From: Patellaria atrata CBS 101060
Lineage: Eukaryota > Ascomycota > Dothideomycetes > Patellariales > Patellariaceae
DNA length: 64,000 nucleotides
NCBI GenBank assembly: GCA_010093705.1
Contig: MU006100.1
Span: 465,929-529,928, forward strand
Direction: 5' to 3'
Every line of letters begins with the position of its first letter. Position 1 is the first letter of the stretch. Of this stretch, positions 11,143-36,502 are shown one piece after another. The notes below the pieces were generated by a model that searched no databases, was not told the origin of the DNA, and was given only the letters and a program-made list of their open reading frames with translations. A program made the translations under genes and the position numbers.

Positions 11143-14100
11143 ATGATTGGAATGACTGAAGGTGTTTGTCCATTCTCTGGAGGACAGAGTACGAGGTCAG
11201 CCTCTGAAGCTGGCCCTGTTCGACGAGGACCCCGGGGATGTGCATTCGCAGGCTTCGGGGCTAATTGCCCATTACCTTCCGCATACTCAGATGTTAGTAT
11301 CACTATAGCACCGCGTATATATATCTAATCAAGTTAGGACCCTCATGAAGTTGAGAGACTTCATCTCCACGAACGTCGAACCATAAACGAAATGTTGCTA
11401 CCAGAAGCACCACCACGCGAGCTTACCAAAGGAATGAAGAATGCAGATAGCTTACCACCGGAAGATGATGCGGTTCTGGCCGTTGCTCTAGGAGCTCCTG
11501 CGCGTCGAGTCCTTATGCGTGCTGAAGAGATAGGACCTCGTACCGGGTGGAAGGATGGCTACCTGTCCGCTACCCATGGCTTTTGTGCCCCGGATCCATC
11601 GGACTCCCCAGTCGCGCTTCGTGCATCTCCAGGACGTGTGTGGTCAGACCTTTGCGAAAGGATGCCTGGTGTCGTCGCCCGCGGGAACATGCGAAACTCA
11701 ATTCTAGCTTTACCTTTGATCTATGCCACTCCGGATGTGATACCGGATCGTGCTCTTTGGGCTGCTACTGTGTGTCTTGGGATTCTAGCTAGTACATATA
11801 GGTATGAAGAACGAAACGACGGTAGTGAGGGTATCAGTGTTACGCCGCCACCGGGAACGTTCCGCAACATAACAGGAGATGCCGATGATGAAGAGGAGGA
11901 AACAAAGGGTATCCCAAGGAATATCGCTATTCCCTTGAAACAAGCTTGTGTCCGAATGGGGAGGCCTCTTCCTCATTTGACTCAATTTGATGTTAGCATT
12001 TATAATTTTAAGATCAGGGATCCCACCAGCGTCCATCCTTATGTTGCTAGATCGGAGAATATGGACCTCAGATGGCCAGTTAGTGGCCCACATCCTTATT
12101 CAAGTAATAGTCTAACATAAAGGATAGGTATTCAATGACCGCGGTGAGGCTATGTTTCTTCTATGCATGGCTGAGGTTCATGGATGCTTCGTTCCCGGTG
12201 TCGAAATTGTCACTCGTTGTCAAGAAGCTGTTATGAACCGCGACAAGGAAGGTCTGCTCCGCGAAATGGTGAAGTTGAAAGCTTTGATCGATCAGTTACC
12301 ATTCATCTTCCATAAGATTAGTGTGAATCCCAATTCAGGAGAGAACTTTGCCAATCCTGTAGAGTGGGGCCAAAGGTGAGATTCAGCATAACGGATTACG
12401 AAGAACTCGTAATTAACTTCATTAGATACGCCAAATGGTCAGCACCTCTTTCTCGGCGTGTGCCAGCACTCAGCGGGTTAGCCCTACCATTATTCCTGCT
12501 CATGGATGCCTTTCTGGGCAGAACAAAATACACTTCATTTTTGGGAATCGAAGCAGTACATCTCCGGAGATGGCTACCACTGAATATTAGAGCATTTATT
12601 GCAGCAATCGAGACAAGCTACAAGATCCCCGAATTTATCAATAACTCCAACGATTCTCGTCTAGAGGGTATTCTCGAAGGCTTGATTGAATCTTATGCCG
12701 GCGAGCGTGGATTCATGGGCACGCATCGATACAAGGTCTACGGCTTTCTAGAAGTAGTTGCAAAAACGGGTAGAACGGAGACTAATGGTAATGCAGGAGC
12801 TGGAGATTCGGAGGGACGGTACGTTAGATCACCCTATATGCAAAAGAACTTCCCTAACGAATGTTTAGTGCATGGGAAGAAGTTCATAGAACGCTCTCTG
12901 ATTCGATGAAAGAGCGACTTGATCCATACCGAGGCGCTGTAGCAGTTCAACCTCACGAGATGCGAGGCTCTTTTGAGGAATGCAGATTCAAAGCACGGAT
13001 TCTTGAACGACAAAATATCGACAATGACTCCGCAAGATCCACAGGAATGGTTACTTTCGACTTACAGGGAAGTGGAATAACATTTCAACCAGGTGATCGG
13101 CTCGCAGTTATGCCTTTCAATAATGCAACTGAAGTTGATAAGATGGCTGCGGCCCTCGGGCTCGACGAGCTCATGGACGTAATCGTACCTGTGGAGAAAG
13201 GGTCCGAATGGGCTCGCTTTTCTCGACATCTAGGAGTCGTCTCTCGAGCACCTATTGCAGGCTTAACTGTTAGGGATATTCTGAAAAGGGGTCATCTTGC
13301 GCCACTTACCAAGGACTTAGTGATGGCGTTCCATATGGCTCTTCGCGCTTCATCTCGGACCATCTTGAAAGTTTTAGCTTCAGAAGAATGGCCGGTTCCT
13401 GGGAGTGTGGGTGATCTGTTGCAAAAGGCGATTGGAGAAGTACCAGGCCCTGTTTGGGATCAAGCGTTCGAATTGGTGGATCTTTCTTGGCTTCCTAAAA
13501 TGATTCCACTGGAGGTTCCTCGTACATACAGTATCTCCAACTACTCACCTGAGCTGCTACCCAGCATGATAGACCTAACAGTTTCCCGGACTGAACGGGC
13601 AATCCACCCAGCTCTAGAACAGACTGAAGGCAAGACTACATCATGTGGCATCAGCAGTGGTTTCTTGAATCCAAAGCCAAAGACAGTTGGGTATCCTACT
13701 TCTTTGAACGACGAAGGGGTCCTCATCGGCATCTCCCGCCCGATAAACTTCCAACTTCCTCCATCTACCACTGCTCCAGTAGCAATGTTCGCTGGCGGCT
13801 CAGGAATTGCACCTTTCCGTGGCTTCTGGCAGGCGCGAGTTCACAATGGAATTGGCAGGAACGTCTTGTTCTTGGGTATCCAATCCCGCGAAAAATTCGT
13901 CTATGAAGATGAACTCCGCTCGCTTGTTCAGGAGGGTTCACTCGAGCTACATCTCGCTTTCTCTCGTGATAGACGTGGGCTCGTATACGATCCAATGTCT
14001 AGAGAATTAATTGAGCGAGATATGGAACCTCATTACATTGACTCTACTATCGTTGAACAAGGACGTATCGTTAGCGAGTTGGTCATGTCGAAGAGTCAAG

Positions 14101-16257
14101 GTGGACAAGCTGGCTATCTTTACGTTTGTGGCTCAGTTTCTGTATATGAGACTGTCATGTCGGGTATCCGGAAAGCTATCTATCAATACTCAGCTGCTAC
14201 GTCTGATACTGCTGACGCTATCCTGGCATCCGCATTCGCTGAAAGACGATTTATGCTAGGTAAGTGATTGATTCGGTCTCTCCTATCCGAATACGCTAAT
14301 ATAAGTAGATATCTTTATGACACCACGTCCTATGTCCTATAAGATGCCGACAATTTCTTTATCGCAACTCGCAAGGAATACGGGTCACAGAAAGGGCTCT
14401 AGAATGTGGATCGGTGTCCATGGAGGAGTGTACGATGTAACTGACTTCCTCGACATACACCCCGGTGGTACACTCATTGTAGCTGCAAGTGCTGGACTGG
14501 ACGCAACCAAAACATTCGATGATCTTGCACATACCTCCAATCCTGAGGTCTCCAGTCTCCTTTCAAAATACTTCATCGGACATCTTGCCACCAAACCGGA
14601 TTTCCGCTCGCCTGAGTTGAGCGATTTGTACAATGTTTTTTATCAGTACCTAAGGACCTGTGTTGAGAGCCTAACAACGTTATTCTTTGAAGCGAACCAT
14701 ATCTTAGAAAATTCGAAGGTTTGGTTTCAAGGCGGATTGCTCAATATAGGAGGTGTTCGGAAGTTCTACCAGTTTCAGAGTCGATTGATGCAAAATGGTT
14801 TCTCTACGCTTTTCGGTGGCAAGCTCCAGGAAATATACCTCAAACTTTCCTTCACACTCGCTAGCGCAGGAGCACCAAATGTCCAACTGCCGGATGTCAT
14901 TGGTACAATCACTCGAGCTCAGTCATCCCACGATGCCGCTATAGCCTCGAAAGAGATTTCTCAGATAGGCCAGTTCGTGTGCAACAGCAGCAAAACCGCA
15001 CAGTTCCATGAGAACGGTATCATCGAATATGCTCAAGCCGTCACTGAGATGGACATCACTTTTTTGGAACACATCCGTGATGAAGTCTGTATGGGAATGG
15101 ATGCATTCGACTCCTTAGCATCGATGGAAGAATCCAGTTCGCGCAAACAAGTGAAGCTATCCGCTTTCCTCCTCACTGTGCTTGAGCGCATTGCCAAACG
15201 TCTAGAGTCTTTCTATGCATCTCTCGCTCAACAATCAATATATAGACCCGAGATAGAACTCAACCCGGCGCGTTCCCGCTGGAATATGCTACGGCGCAAG
15301 ATCTTCGACGGGTCCCTCTTCATCCTTGCACAGGTTCCCCAACTCGACCATCACGACACTCGCGGCTCAATTTTCCGGCCCGGTGCTACGTCCACCGATG
15401 TTGATTTCACTCACGTCTTTGAGAGCGTGCAAAGGGCCCTCCGCGCTGATACCTCGGTCTCCTTTAATGCCATTGCTTCCGAGCCAAAGCGCCTTGCTGA
15501 TGCTCATACGGCACGTGCGAACACAAACGCCAGCGCCGCAAGCACGTTCGAGACTCGTGAAAATGCAGCAGCGCTTCGCCAACTTGGCGCTTTCATCTCA
15601 GAAAACGCGTCCTCCATTCGCCGCCTTAGCCGCATTCCCGCTGCGTACGACTTTGATCAGATCATGGCCGCGTACGGGGAGAAGTCGCCCAGCTCTCCCC
15701 ACCATGTGCGCACTCGTTCCGGCCTCAGTTCTACTTCAATGCCGAGACAGAAGGTGCAGACACCGCCTTCCCAACTTTCACCACCGTTGCAGAATGGAAC
15801 GCTGAACCGAAGGGCTCCTCCAGCTGAGTCGAGTCCTCCAGCTCCCCTATTTACAAATGAGAATGCCACCACAACAGCTACCACGGCACCAGCACCCCTC
15901 CACCGCCGTCAACCAACTCCCACCTCATCGCTTCCTCAACCCAAAACTTCACCCCCTCTCCCCATTTTACACAGGCGCGCCCCTCCCTCCACATCCGTAA
16001 CTTCCGCGTCCCAACCTCGTCGACAAGGATCCAATGAGTCCATGTCCTCGGCCTACCGTGCGGCGGCGTCCGTGGCTGGGAGCTTGCCAGGCACATTGGT
16101 GAGTGGAGGTGCGAAGGGTAGGGCGATGGGAGTGGGTGGACCGTTTCCAGTCCGAACTTACACGACTGCAGGACAGGGGCCTGGATTAAGGGCATTGAGG
16201 TTAGGCGCGGGTACGGGCCCTGGTGGGATAGAGAGGAAGGTTCAGGTTAGGGAATAG
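11143..16257 (+). CDS. IDO/PrnB-like haem domain - FAD/NADPH reductase - cytochrome b5 fusion protein
   Basis: Six exons (11143-11292, 11338-12078, 12128-12375, 12426-12818, 12869-14259, 14309-16257) with introns of 45-50 bp and all phases agreeing: 1623 residues. Residues 1-510 resemble the indoleamine-2,3-dioxygenase/PrnB (DUF1864) haem fold: RWPVFNDRGEAMFLLCMAEV, then FHKIS (~359), then ERGFMGTHRYKV, whose His (~480) is the candidate axial ligand. Residues ~530-975 form a P450-reductase-like FNR module without the FMN domain: FQPGDRLAVMPF, RTYSISNYS (~729, FAD), GGSGIAPFRGFWQAR (~820) and LFLGIQSREKFVYEDEL (NADPH side). Residues ~985-1065 are cytochrome b5: DFLDIHPGGT (~1025) and FDDLAHTSNP (His ~1049). 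A helical region and a Pro/Ser-rich tail follow. Inferred: a self-sufficient haem oxygenase fed by NADPH through FAD and b5; substrate unknown. No signal peptide or clear membrane anchor. Confidence 0.9.
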
Positions 16258-30418: not shown

Positions 30419-31705
30419 TCACAGCCTACTCCCTCCATCCCTCTCTCGCTCCCCTTCCCCCGCAATCTCAACAACCAACTTCCCAAACTGCCTACCGGCC
30501 TTCATATCCTCGAACAAGCCATCGATCTTATCGACATCGAGGCCTTTCACGACGCGGGAGATGACGGGCCGGAGTTTGTGCGTTCGGACGAAGGCGAGCA
30601 TGGCGGCGAACTCAGCACGCGAACCCATGGTCGTGGTACGGATTTCGATGTTTTTGAGCACGGTGGGCATGGAGAGGGTTAGGGAGGGGGATGTCGTCAT
30701 GCCGTACAGGGATATGATGCCGCCGTGCTGGTTGGGGGGGTTAGTTGGGTGTGGGAAGTTTNNNNNNNNNNNNNNNNNNNNNNNNNNNNNNNNNNNNNNN
30801 NNNNNNNNNNNNNNNNNNNNNNNNNNNNNNNNNNNNNNNNNNNNNNNNNNNNNNNNNNNNNNNNNNNNNNNNNNNNNNNNNNNNNNNNNNNNNNNNNNNN
30901 NNNNNNNNNNNNNNNNNNNNNNNNNNNNNNNNNNNNNNNNNNNNNNNNNNNNNNNNNNNNNNNNNNNNNNNNNNNNNNNNNNNNNNNNNNNNNNNNNNNN
31001 NNNNNNNNNNNNNNNNNNNNNNNNNNNNNNNNNNNNNNNNNNNNNNNNNNNNNNNNNNNNNNNNNNNNNNNNNNNNNNNNNNNNNNCAAACACATTCGCC
31101 CCGACCCCCACCGCGAACAGCACAACCATAAGCGCAACCCCGCCCCCAACACCGGTCACCAACACATTCTTCCCCGCCCCCACATGTCCCGCACACTTCG
31201 TGAACAGCGCCCGCCACGCCGTCAGCCCCGTAAGCGGCAGCGCCGCGGCTTCCACATCTGACAGATGGCCGGGGACCTCTTCCACCTCGCCCGCCTCTAC
31301 CACGGCGTATTCCTGTAGCGTGCCGAGCGGTACGGTGGCCGTGCCCCCGAGAATCCTGTATCCGCCCTCGTCTTCGGGTCCGTCGGGGGAGGAGGCCCAG
31401 CCGTAGCCGGGGGTAAGGACGACGCGTTTCCCGGCCCAGCGTTTTGTGGCCGGGGAGGAGCCGGTGCCGATTACGATGCCGCAGCCGTCGGCGAGGAGGG
31501 GGGTGTGGAAGGAGATGCGCGGGTAGAGGTTTTGGCGGATGAAGAGGTCGCGATGGTTGAGGGAGGCGGCGGTTAGGCGGATTAGGACGGATGTGGGGCC
31601 GAGGGGCGGTATGTGGAGGGTGGTGCGGTGGAGGGGGTAGTATGTTTTTCCGGGGGGGCCGGGGGGGCCTTGGATTGTGATGCATGTGGAGCGGGTGGGG
31701 AGCAT
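30419..31705 (-). CDS. medium-chain (zinc-type alcohol dehydrogenase/quinone oxidoreductase family) dehydrogenase, split by an assembly gap
   Basis: Begins at the ATG 31705. The N-terminal GroES-like fold is clear: PPLGPTSVLIRLTAASLNHR, DLFIRQNLYP and PLLADGCGIVIGTG. Next comes EEVPGHLSDVEAAALPLTGL with TAWRALF, and the start of the Rossmann domain, GAGKNVLVTGVGGGVALMV. The next ~100 codons are lost in the N-run. Coding resumes after a probable acceptor (CCAACCAG, exon from 30727) with HGGIISLYG and ends VKGLDVDKIDGLFEDMKAGR then QFGKLVVEI, stop at 30419. It matches the fungal NAD(P)-dependent MDR proteins near quinone oxidoreductase that lack the catalytic-zinc cysteine; substrate unknown. 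An upstream in-frame ATG at 31870 gives only a Pro-rich leader and is not preferred. Confidence 0.82.
   Translation of the reverse strand: MLPTRSTCITIQGPPGPPGKTYYPLHRTTLHIPPLGPTSVLIRLTAASLNHRDLFIRQNLYPRISFHTPLLADGCGIVIGTGSSPATKRWAGKRVVLTPGYGWASSPDGPEDEGGYRILGGTATVPLGTLQEYAVVEAGEVEEVPGHLSDVEAAALPLTGLTAWRALFTKCAGHVGAGKNVLVTGVGGGVALMVVLFAVGVGANVFXXXXXXXXXXXXXXXXXXXXXXXXXXXXXXXXXXXXXXXXXXXXXXXXXXXXXXXXXXXXXXXXXXXXXXXXXXXXXXXXXXXXXXXXXXXXXXXXXXXXXXXXXXXXXNFPHPTNPPNQHGGIISLYGMTTSPSLTLSMPTVLKNIEIRTTTMGSRAEFAAMLAFVRTHKLRPVISRVVKGLDVDKIDGLFEDMKAGRQFGKLVVEIAGEGERERDGGSRL
30762..31086. other. assembly gap, 325 N
   Basis: All bases are N. Reading frames across it cannot be trusted. Its flanks are G-runs and C-rich sequence, which may explain the failure to assemble. 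Confidence 0.99.
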
Positions 31706-32236
31706 TGTGGATTTGGGGGGAGGGGGTAGCGGATAGGGGGTTTGAGGGATTTCTTGGGGGGGAAGCTTGAGGTTTGGAGGGTTCGGGGGGAAAGGGTTAA
31801 TTGGGCTTTTAGTTTGGGTTTTGGGGATAGGAATTGGGAATTGGTGGTTATATATGGTATAGATGTACAATTTTGTAAAGGCGCAGATTGAGGTTGGGGT
31901 TGGTGAATGTTAAGGTAATGTAGAGCTGTGGTGATGGAGCTCGAAAAGCTATAAGGTTGTCTACGCTGGATGACGATGACCGAGCTCCCCTTCCTCCACA
32001 TTTTCCGAACCGAGGCTTGTGGGGGAAGCTCGGGATGCCGGCGTAAGGTCGGGCTATTTTAGGAAATATAATGATAACGACAATCGATATTTCATTAAGT
32101 TGTACTCTACTGTGATTAACGATCGCGTTCAACTCATCATCTTAACCTCCCTGACTCAGGTACTCGTTTTGATATCTTACCAGGTTAATCGTATTGTACA
32201 TATCTTTCATGGTAGAGTCTCGAACGATCCCACTAT
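31706..32236. other. intergenic between dehydrogenase and HET locus
   Basis: 5' flank of the dehydrogenase gene (minus strand); G-rich on the plus strand near 31706-31800. Overlapping short frames have no motif. Confidence 0.4.
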
Positions 32237-34754: not shown

Positions 34755-36502
34755 ATGGACGACAAGAGCTTCACTGGAGCTTTCGGTCTCAGTAATACAT
34801 CGATCATTTTTATCTTTGCGATTCTGGGAATATGCGCTCTTCATTATCACTTCCGCATCCGATTTGACCCGCGCGAACCACCCGTTATCCACCATCCTGT
34901 CCCTTATGTTGGACATATATGGGGTATGTTCAAGTATGGGGCAAAGTATTTTCAGATCGTGAAGTATGTACCTCTTCTCTTATATCCCACTCTATTTCAT
35001 TTCTCTAGTCAAAAGAAAACAAAATAGAAACTCTTATCGTACTATCCCTCACCTCACACATCATCCCCCTAAAACAGACCAACTAACCCCCACCCAGCCC
35101 TCAAAACTACCCAATCTACACCCTCCCAACACTCACATCCCGCACCTACATCACCACCTCCCCCACGCTCGCCTCCCTAGTCCAACGCACGCACCCAAAC
35201 CTCTCCTTCTACTCCATCATCCTCCCCATAACCCAACGTCTCTGCGCCCTCGACGAACCAACCATGCGCATCGTTCTGGCTAACGCAAACGGGAAACCCG
35301 GCCCCGAAGCCCTGATGCCCGAAATGCATGAAATGATCACCTCGACCCTCGGCCCCGGCGACGCCCTGCGCGAACTAACCGGGAGCCAAGTAGCGGAGAT
35401 GGGCCGGCTCTTCGCCCCCGTCGCGGAGGGAGAGGAAAAGGAGGTGCTGAGTCTGTACGGGTTCGTGACAGACGTGTTCACTAAGGCGAACGCGTGGGCT
35501 CTCTACGGGCCGCAGAACGTCTTCCGTCGGGATCCCGGGCTCATCCGGGACTTTTGGACTTACGAGGGCGGCATTGTGGGGTTGCTGGCAGATGTCGTGC
35601 CCTGGGTTACGGCGCGCAAGGCGTGGTTGGCACGGGAGAGGTTGATGAAGGCGTTCGAGACGTACGTGGCTGAGAAGGGGTATGAGGAGGCTTCGACGCT
35701 TATTCAGCGCCGCGTGGAGATGAATCGGAGACATGGGTTTAGCGTTAAGATGGCTGGACATGCGGAGTTGATCATGCTGTTTGGCGTCCTGGGGAACGCG
35801 GTGCCGACTAGCTTTTGGGTCGTTACTAACATCTTTTCGCGGCCGGAACTACTCGCTGAGCTGCGAGCTGAGTTGGAGAAGGTAGTGAGGGAAGAGGAGG
35901 GAGTCAGGGTGGTTAGTGTTACGGCATTGAGGGAACGCTGTCCGCTCCTCATCTCGACCATGCGCGAGACCATGCGTGTGATTGCCATTTTGGCCTCCGT
36001 TAAGTATGTTCTCGAGGATACCCTTATCGCGGATAAGTATCTGCTCAAGGCGAACTCGGTCGTGCAGATTGCGTCGGGTGTTACGCATATAGATGAAAAT
36101 ATATGGGGTGCGGACGCGAAGACCTTTAATCCCCGGCGTTTCATGGCTCCCAAGCCGGTTAACGGATCTACTGAGAAAGAGGTTATCGACAGGAAGGAGC
36201 CGGAGACGCAGCAGAGTGCGGTTAATCTCCCTAAGGGTGTTCCCTCAGCAGCATACAGGGTCTTCGGTGGAGGTAGTGTGATATGTCCCGGGAGACATTT
36301 TGCACAGAATGAGATAGCTGCTTTCACGGCGATGATGGTTCTCGGGTTTGATATGGAGGAAGCGGACGGGGGACGCATTCGGTTACCGGAGAAGGATGAG
36401 CAGACTGTCCCGTTGAGTGTGATGAAGCCGAAAAAGGATATTCAGGTTAGAATGATGAGGAGGGAGGGGTTTGAGAACGTGAAGTGGGAAATGGAGTTGT
36501 AA
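34755..36502 (+). CDS. cytochrome P450 monooxygenase
   Basis: Two exons, 34755-34963 and 35098-36502, joined AA|C in frame, give 537 residues. An N-terminal anchor helix (SIIFIFAILGICALHYHF) is followed by a Pro-rich hinge (PREPPVIHHPVPYVGHIWG), the standard microsomal P450 start. The K-helix ExxR is present as STMRETMR. The haem-binding loop is FGGGSVICPGRHFAQNEIA, with the Cys ligand in FxxGxxxCxGxxFA. The I-helix region (HAELIMLFGVLGNAVPTSFW) lacks the usual AGxDT triad, as in the CYP7/CYP8-like fungal P450s that act on steroid- or lipid-like substrates. PITQRLCALDEPT and ITTSPTLASLVQR also fit that group; this placement is from memory. It stands alone with no obvious biosynthetic neighbours. 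Exon 2 is clearly GC-richer than its surroundings. Confidence 0.92.

Follow-up and report, generated by a model that had tools for sequence, protein, structure and literature searches.

Haem oxygenases that share a single chain with an NADPH reductase are represented by the self-sufficient P450s, in which a P450 is joined to cytochrome P450 reductase (CPR), and by nitric oxide synthase (NOS). In eukaryotic nitrate reductase, electrons pass from NAD(P)H over FAD and cytochrome b5 to the active site, also within one chain. The gene described here is located in a 64,000-nucleotide stretch of the ascomycete Patellaria atrata CBS 101060 (assembly GCA_010093705.1, contig MU006100.1, forward-strand positions 465,929 to 529,928), hereafter called the window. 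On the plus strand, at 11143..16257, it predicts a protein of 1623 residues in which an indoleamine dioxygenase (IDO)-like haem domain, a CPR-type FAD/NADPH reductase module and a cytochrome b5 follow one another.

As in the self-sufficient P450s and NOS, a haem oxygenase and an NADPH reductase would be united in this fusion. Their haem, however, is cysteine-ligated, whereas the head of the fusion is IDO-like, its haem presumably histidine-ligated, and a b5 replaces the FMN domain. The FAD and NADPH domains and the hydride-transfer residues are common to the fusion and the CPR/sulfite reductase family, but this family possesses an FMN domain that the fusion module lacks. Nitrate reductase differs in the family of its FAD module, in the domain order and in the active site. 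The head itself is homologous to IDO1 and the fungal IDOs, with a proximal-histidine candidate at the matching place, but it is only ~20% identical to them, carries LSGLALP instead of the distal GGSxxQSS motif and has a reductase and a b5 attached. Each module is known already; among the literature matches listed, no title or abstract opening describes an IDO combined with a CPR-type module and a b5.

We propose that the protein belongs to the IDO group and acts as a self-sufficient haem oxygenase, in which electrons would flow from NADPH over FAD and b5 to the IDO-like haem, probably for the monooxygenation of an aromatic substrate other than L-Trp; the chances of this proposal appear evenly balanced. 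What the sequence itself shows is a single frame that stays open after splicing, the families and the order of the domains, the residues of the reductase and the b5 and the altered distal motif.

Gene structure and domain order

The gene consists of exon 1 (11143..11292, residues 1-50), exons 2 to 4 (11338-12078, 12128-12375 and 12426-12818) and exons 5 and 6 (12869-14259 and 14309-16257), all on the plus strand. Spliced together, the six exons form a single frame of 1623 residues and a stop codon, and an in-frame stop is present upstream of the ATG. The introns, removed at the junctions 11292/11338, 12078/12128, 12375/12426, 12818/12869 and 14259/14309, are 45, 49, 50, 50 and 49 nt long, respectively. 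All five start with GTNNGN and end with TAG, and a branch-site-like CTAAY or TTAAC is found 13-16 nt before the 3' end. The three sense frames were compared by a codon-preference score, for which six other frames of this genome (4036 codons) served as the training set; in exons 2 to 6, the gene frame scores highest. The clean joining of six exons claimed by the initial annotation is thus confirmed by the spliced translation, the intron signals and, for five of the six exons, the codon scores. Exon 6 was scored in nine 200-nt steps; in the last two, which encode part of a tail rich in Pro, Ser, Thr, Ala and Gly, another frame scores higher. Exon 1 is the least certain: over its 50 codons, the score does not favor the gene frame over the other sense frames. 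Two Cys-Pro motifs near the N-terminus, VCPF (residues 8-11) and NCPL (residues 41-44; window 11164-11274), are encoded in this exon. Cys-Pro motifs of such a kind occur in haem regulatory motifs.

Four Pfam families are matched above their cut-offs, in the order IDO (residues 127-362), FAD_binding_1 (550-749), NAD_binding_1 (817-874) and Cyt-b5 (1001-1067). The junction between the IDO-like part and the rest, at intron 4, falls between domains, and this would be the place where a gene model could wrongly join an IDO-like gene to a separate reductase-b5 gene. Moreover, with intron 4 retained, the frame reads through 12819-12909, adding 29 residues before a stop at 12909 and yielding an IDO-only protein. 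However, the signals of intron 4 (GTACGT donor, CTAAC at -15, TAG acceptor) match those of the other four introns, neither a stop nor an intergenic space separates the two parts, and to either side of the intron the codon scores indicate coding sequence. An artefact of this kind has therefore very little chance, the least of the explanations weighed here. Since the retained frame stops at 12909, an IDO-only product is conceivable, and alternative splicing by retention of intron 4 (12819-12909) is possible.

The IDO-like head

The IDO-like haem domain covers residues ~120-510 (11545..12818, plus strand) and is encoded by three exons with two introns inside. It was recognized by PF01231, with 48.1 bits when the whole protein was scanned and 52.5 bits with residues 1-563 (cut-off 26). 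The match spans only positions 8-211 of the 412 of the profile and ends short of His480. In a single-sequence phmmer search of the PDB, IDO1 chains were matched (best E 7.3e-8), and hhalign against eight IDOs gave a probability of 99.1% over 380 columns, its E-value referring to one target only. The eight references are the IDO1 and IDO2 chains of the PDB, two proteins from this genome, two bacterial relatives (L042 and L044) and two haloarchaeal plasmid proteins.

Because the PF01231 match stops before the proximal-histidine helix, the two halves of the head were also scored separately against the eight-IDO profile. Residues 120-362 reached 48.5 bits and residues 363-540 reached 14.9 bits; the best of 500 shuffles per half scored 0.9 and 0.7 bits, respectively, among the 215 and 292 sequences (the real one included) that passed the reporting threshold. 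A structure prediction of residues 102-535, made with one relative, had a mean pLDDT of 35.3.

PrnB belongs with other haem-dependent aromatic oxygenases to a superfamily that now includes IDO (PMC12921851). The PrnB profile PF08933 gave no Pfam match, at E up to 1 for the full protein or up to 10 for residues 1-563, in scans where the HMMER filters discard most matches above E ~0.1. With PF01231 above its cut-off and PF08933 unmatched, the head is, judged by these profiles, a divergent IDO-family domain and not a PrnB. The initial annotation had placed it in a joint IDO/PrnB group; the IDO part of this assignment stands, while membership in PrnB/DUF1864 was rejected. When the genome itself was searched with PF08933, nothing was matched, controls included, so this search carries no weight of its own.

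The proximal haem ligand of IDO1 is His346. Two mafft alignments, and hhalign as well, pair His480 (codon at 12724..12726, plus strand) with this residue. The distance from the R.x.P motif to His480 is 53 residues, compared to 49-56 in seven IDOs (anchors picked by eye), a range from which L042 was omitted, as it has a Tyr at the proximal-histidine position. Further histidines within residues 363-545 are His425, His517 and His540. His480 is, in these alignments, the best candidate for a proximal ligand in the head, so that the axial histidine suggested earlier in GFMGTHRYKV is backed by mafft and hhalign, with hmmalign leaving it unplaced. Furthermore, Asp407 pairs with Asp274 of IDO1, which is invariant in all eight references.

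The distal side is altered. The GGSxxQSS motif is replaced by LSGLALP, in a register anchored by the LMDAFLG that follows directly, and Gln266 of IDO1 becomes an Ala. Among the eight references, the motif is itself variable: the second Gly varies in five and the Gln in one. Retention of intron 3 was considered as a source of the distal motif and rejected, since by eye it either introduces a stop or reads in a frame that lacks the motif. Because of the LSGLALP replacement, L-Trp is an unlikely substrate. Arg231 of IDO1, which holds the carboxylate of Trp, is kept in seven of the eight references; at its position, the three alignments place a gap, an Asn or a Glu in the head. By eye, Arg380 in NPVEWGQRY could occupy this position, and the Phe226/Arg231 segment is not placeable. 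The Trp pocket is thus changed, as far as the alignments tell, but a loss of Arg231 is not proven.

Reductase module, cytochrome b5 and C-terminal part

The FAD/NADPH module of the CPR/sulfite reductase family (residues ~541-977; 12957..14316, plus strand) has intron 5 inside. FAD_binding_1 scores 52.8 bits (cut-off 32.3) and NAD_binding_1 35.2 bits (cut-off 22). The sulfite reductase alpha model covers residues 541-976 with an E-value of 1.8e-27 and 96 bits, below its own cut-off of 432, and structures of CPR, of sulfite reductase, of NOS and of self-sufficient P450s are found among the 50 matched PDB sequences. No flavodoxin or FMN domain was matched in the protein by Pfam at E up to 1; as a positive control, the same library detects Flavodoxin_1 at 7e-38 in the genome's own CPR-type frame (L007).

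The hydride-transfer residues are kept: S732 in RTYS, C931 in YVCG and D975 in LDIF. In the CPR family, the Ser, the Cys and the Asp have their roles in hydride transfer. The module also keeps the flavin motif GISSGFL as well as AFSRD. All five motifs are aligned to the genome's own reductases where the open frames of these reach. The Ser-Arg of AFSRD-type motifs binds the 2'-phosphate of NADPH in CPR. At the end of LDIF, the module has Phe977 where CPR has a Trp. Among the reductases aligned at this C-terminal position, L008 has LEVY, L010 has QDTW and L009 is different, while L007 has an open frame that ends before this position.

The cytochrome b5 domain (residues ~981-1070; 14326..14595, plus strand) matches PF00173 with 56.1 bits (cut-off 23.7, E 3.8e-15). 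Its axial pair, His1025 in HPGG and His1049, is in place with a spacing of 24. Both the reductase module without an FMN domain and the b5 behind it are therefore as first described, and the motifs then named (GFMGTHRYKV, RTYSISNY, GGSGIAPFRG, HPGG and HTSN) are all present in the protein.

Behind the b5, residues 1071-1430 (14596..15675, plus strand) are perhaps helical. Pfam, scanned to E 10, matched nothing in residues 1070-1447, and the PDB gave matches only at E 0.9 and 2.3. Modelled alone, residues 982-1430 had a mean pLDDT of 38 and were, at low confidence, mostly helical after the b5. The last residues, 1431-1623 (15676..16254, plus strand), form the tail in which another frame scores higher toward the end; its composition is 59% Pro, Ser, Thr, Ala and Gly.

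FAD modules that reduce a b5 on behalf of outside enzymes are common. The reductase and b5 of the fusion could likewise serve another partner, such as a desaturase, a P450 or a sterol enzyme, and the IDO-like head would then regulate them, either by sensing haem or redox state or as an enzyme that is worn out. The strong divergence of the head (~20% identity), the possible loss of Arg343 of IDO1 and an open reading frame (ORF) with a P450 match in the window (35087-36502) are in agreement with this. On the other hand, His480, Asp407 and the spacing to the C-terminal helix are retained, the frame is open across 1623 residues, and the P450 ORF lies ~19 kb from the fusion gene, which makes such a partnership quite improbable.

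Flavohaemoglobins, too, are built from a haem head and an NAD(P)H-FAD module. The head could then be an O2-binding haem, fed by FAD and b5, for the conversion of NO, nitrite or O2. An oxygen-binding, IDO-like myoglobin is described in PMC3820574, and the altered Trp-site motif would suit such a function. However, the same paper presents NO dioxygenation as impossible for the IDO-like turbo myoglobin, and the protein gave no globin match, the four families named above being the only Pfam matches at E up to 1. An IDO-derived counterpart of the flavohaemoglobins has accordingly a very slim chance.

Electron flow, relatives and meaning

In the proposed mechanism, NADPH would deliver a hydride to the FAD of the CPR-type module, and the flavin would pass single electrons to the tethered b5, which would substitute for the missing FMN domain. 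In the IDO-like head, the b5 would reduce a haem with a histidine ligand, and an aromatic substrate other than free L-tryptophan would be monooxygenated there, electrons being consumed at each turnover. The haem in the head, the order of electron transfer, the reaction and the substrate are what we infer from the domains and their residues. Monooxygenation would be the likeliest chemistry, because a permanent supply of electrons is most useful where each turnover uses them. For dioxygenases, one initiating reduction of the ferric haem suffices, without continuous re-reduction by a reductase (PMC5350241). IDO is also capable of monooxygenation, and turnover then requires the iron to be re-reduced (PMC12921851). 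A covalent NADPH-FAD-b5 chain would thus fit monooxygenation better.

The earlier statement that IDO needs no dedicated reductase has to be corrected in the light of these sources (PMC5350241, PMC13142367, PMC4191572). One proposal is that IDO is physiologically reduced by b5 (PMC4191572). In vitro, IDO1 is supported by CPR whether or not b5 is present, the role in vivo being called unclear in 2026 (PMC13142367). Since b5 and CPR have been put forward as partners of IDO1 (PMC4191572, PMC13142367), the head could also be an IDO-type dioxygenase that cleaves an indole-like ring, with the fused FAD-b5 unit only keeping the haem ferrous and repairing the ferric enzyme. The recruitment of fungal IDOs by secondary metabolism (PMC7448278) is consistent with this. 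Dioxygenation is nevertheless unlikely, as the distal motif is LSGLALP with Ala for Gln266, the genome has two other IDOs, one of them canonical, and a single initiating reduction should need no covalent reductase (PMC5350241).

PF01231 matches three loci of this genome, in six exon matches. Besides the fusion, there is a canonical IDO on contig C9, with 559 bits over residues 8-437, and a divergent one on contig C5 (L040, 263510-265036), with 137 bits. The latter is apparently unfused, FAD_binding_1 being unmatched anywhere on its contig. In this C5 gene, the proximal His is retained and the distal motif reads GESGANDS; by its sequence it resembles the low-activity type of fungal IDO. FAD_binding_1 is found at five places in the genome, including the CPR-type frame with an FMN domain (L007), and Cyt-b5 is matched 20 times, some of the matches being exons of one gene. 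Because a canonical IDO and a separate CPR-type reductase are present, neither the IDO job nor the CPR job needs the fusion gene. With the full protein as the query, no second copy of the fusion was found in this genome among the best candidates scored.

With the IDO domain of the fusion as the first query, 113 pattern matches in genome_contigs and 28 in viral_contigs included no relatives. The canonical IDO gave 105 matches with one relative (L042) in genome_contigs and 37 with none in viral_contigs. By tblastn with the IDO domain, five plasmid records were matched at E up to 10, namely the two haloarchaeal IDO-type genes (best E 0.07) and three chance matches; the phages gave two chance matches only. 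PF01231 was matched in two of the 395 genomes of a sampled bacterial phylum, one of them the genome on which the sample was centred.

Several points weigh against the proposed oxygenase. The helix of His480 is left unaligned by hmmalign. Arg343 of IDO1, invariant in all eight references, apparently corresponds to Met477 when the register of hhalign, which has no gap here, is followed, and haem binding in the head is for this reason not certain; mafft places an Arg opposite Arg343 by means of a three-residue gap. In the order of the chain, the reductase separates the head from the b5 that would reduce it. The C-terminal residues 1071-1623 may have a role that the proposal ignores. Finally, the searched collections of prokaryotes, plasmids, phages and viruses, with this genome as the one fungal genome covered, yielded no fused relative that would show the fusion to be conserved.

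Some relatives of the head were noted in passing. L042 (4593-5606) is a Saprospiraceae protein of 337 residues, possibly truncated, with the Tyr aligned at the proximal-histidine site. The bacterial IDO L044 (genome G318, 1255-2676 of its locus) looks like the C5 gene and adjoins, by a look at the sequence, a metallo-hydrolase-like ORF. On the two haloarchaeal plasmids, the IDO-type gene (L045, 2692-3852; L046, 2869-4029) lies near a kynureninase gene (kynU), and that of L045 is annotated merely as a hypothetical protein.

In the window, 18 ORFs selected from the longer ones were scanned with Pfam. Matches above cut-off are an MCM3-like protein (overlapping Mg_chelatase), an AAA ATPase, HET (barely above threshold, 23.0 bits for a cut-off of 22.5), the P450, a sulfate permease, STAS and TatD. 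No biosynthetic backbone synthase was found among these 18 ORFs. The HET domain, together with the introns, would suggest a filamentous ascomycete. A run of N at 30762-31086, standing for missing or withheld sequence, lies inside a long minus-strand ORF (30419-31909).

A fusion of this kind is absent from the titles and abstract openings of the literature matches listed, and unannotated fusions of the same kind may well be in databases. It is a tentative claim, held with somewhat more doubt than conviction, that the IDO group has in this protein its first self-sufficient member, a haem monooxygenase with a histidine ligand that is powered by NADPH and has the IDO fold fused to partners of the kind suspected of reducing IDO. 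Should the protein prove to be a monooxygenase, it would form a histidine-ligated counterpart of the self-sufficient P450s and be of interest for biocatalysis. PrnB gave no product when tested with CPR and b5 (PMC11791213), so lessons from the fusion need not extend to that enzyme. For IDO itself, the reduction in cells is still disputed (PMC13142367), and the fusion bears on this question: it offers one protein in which the electron flow to an IDO-like haem could be measured, and the natural occurrence of an IDO-like head in one chain with a CPR-type module and a b5 would be evolutionary evidence for the CPR/b5 route of IDO reduction.

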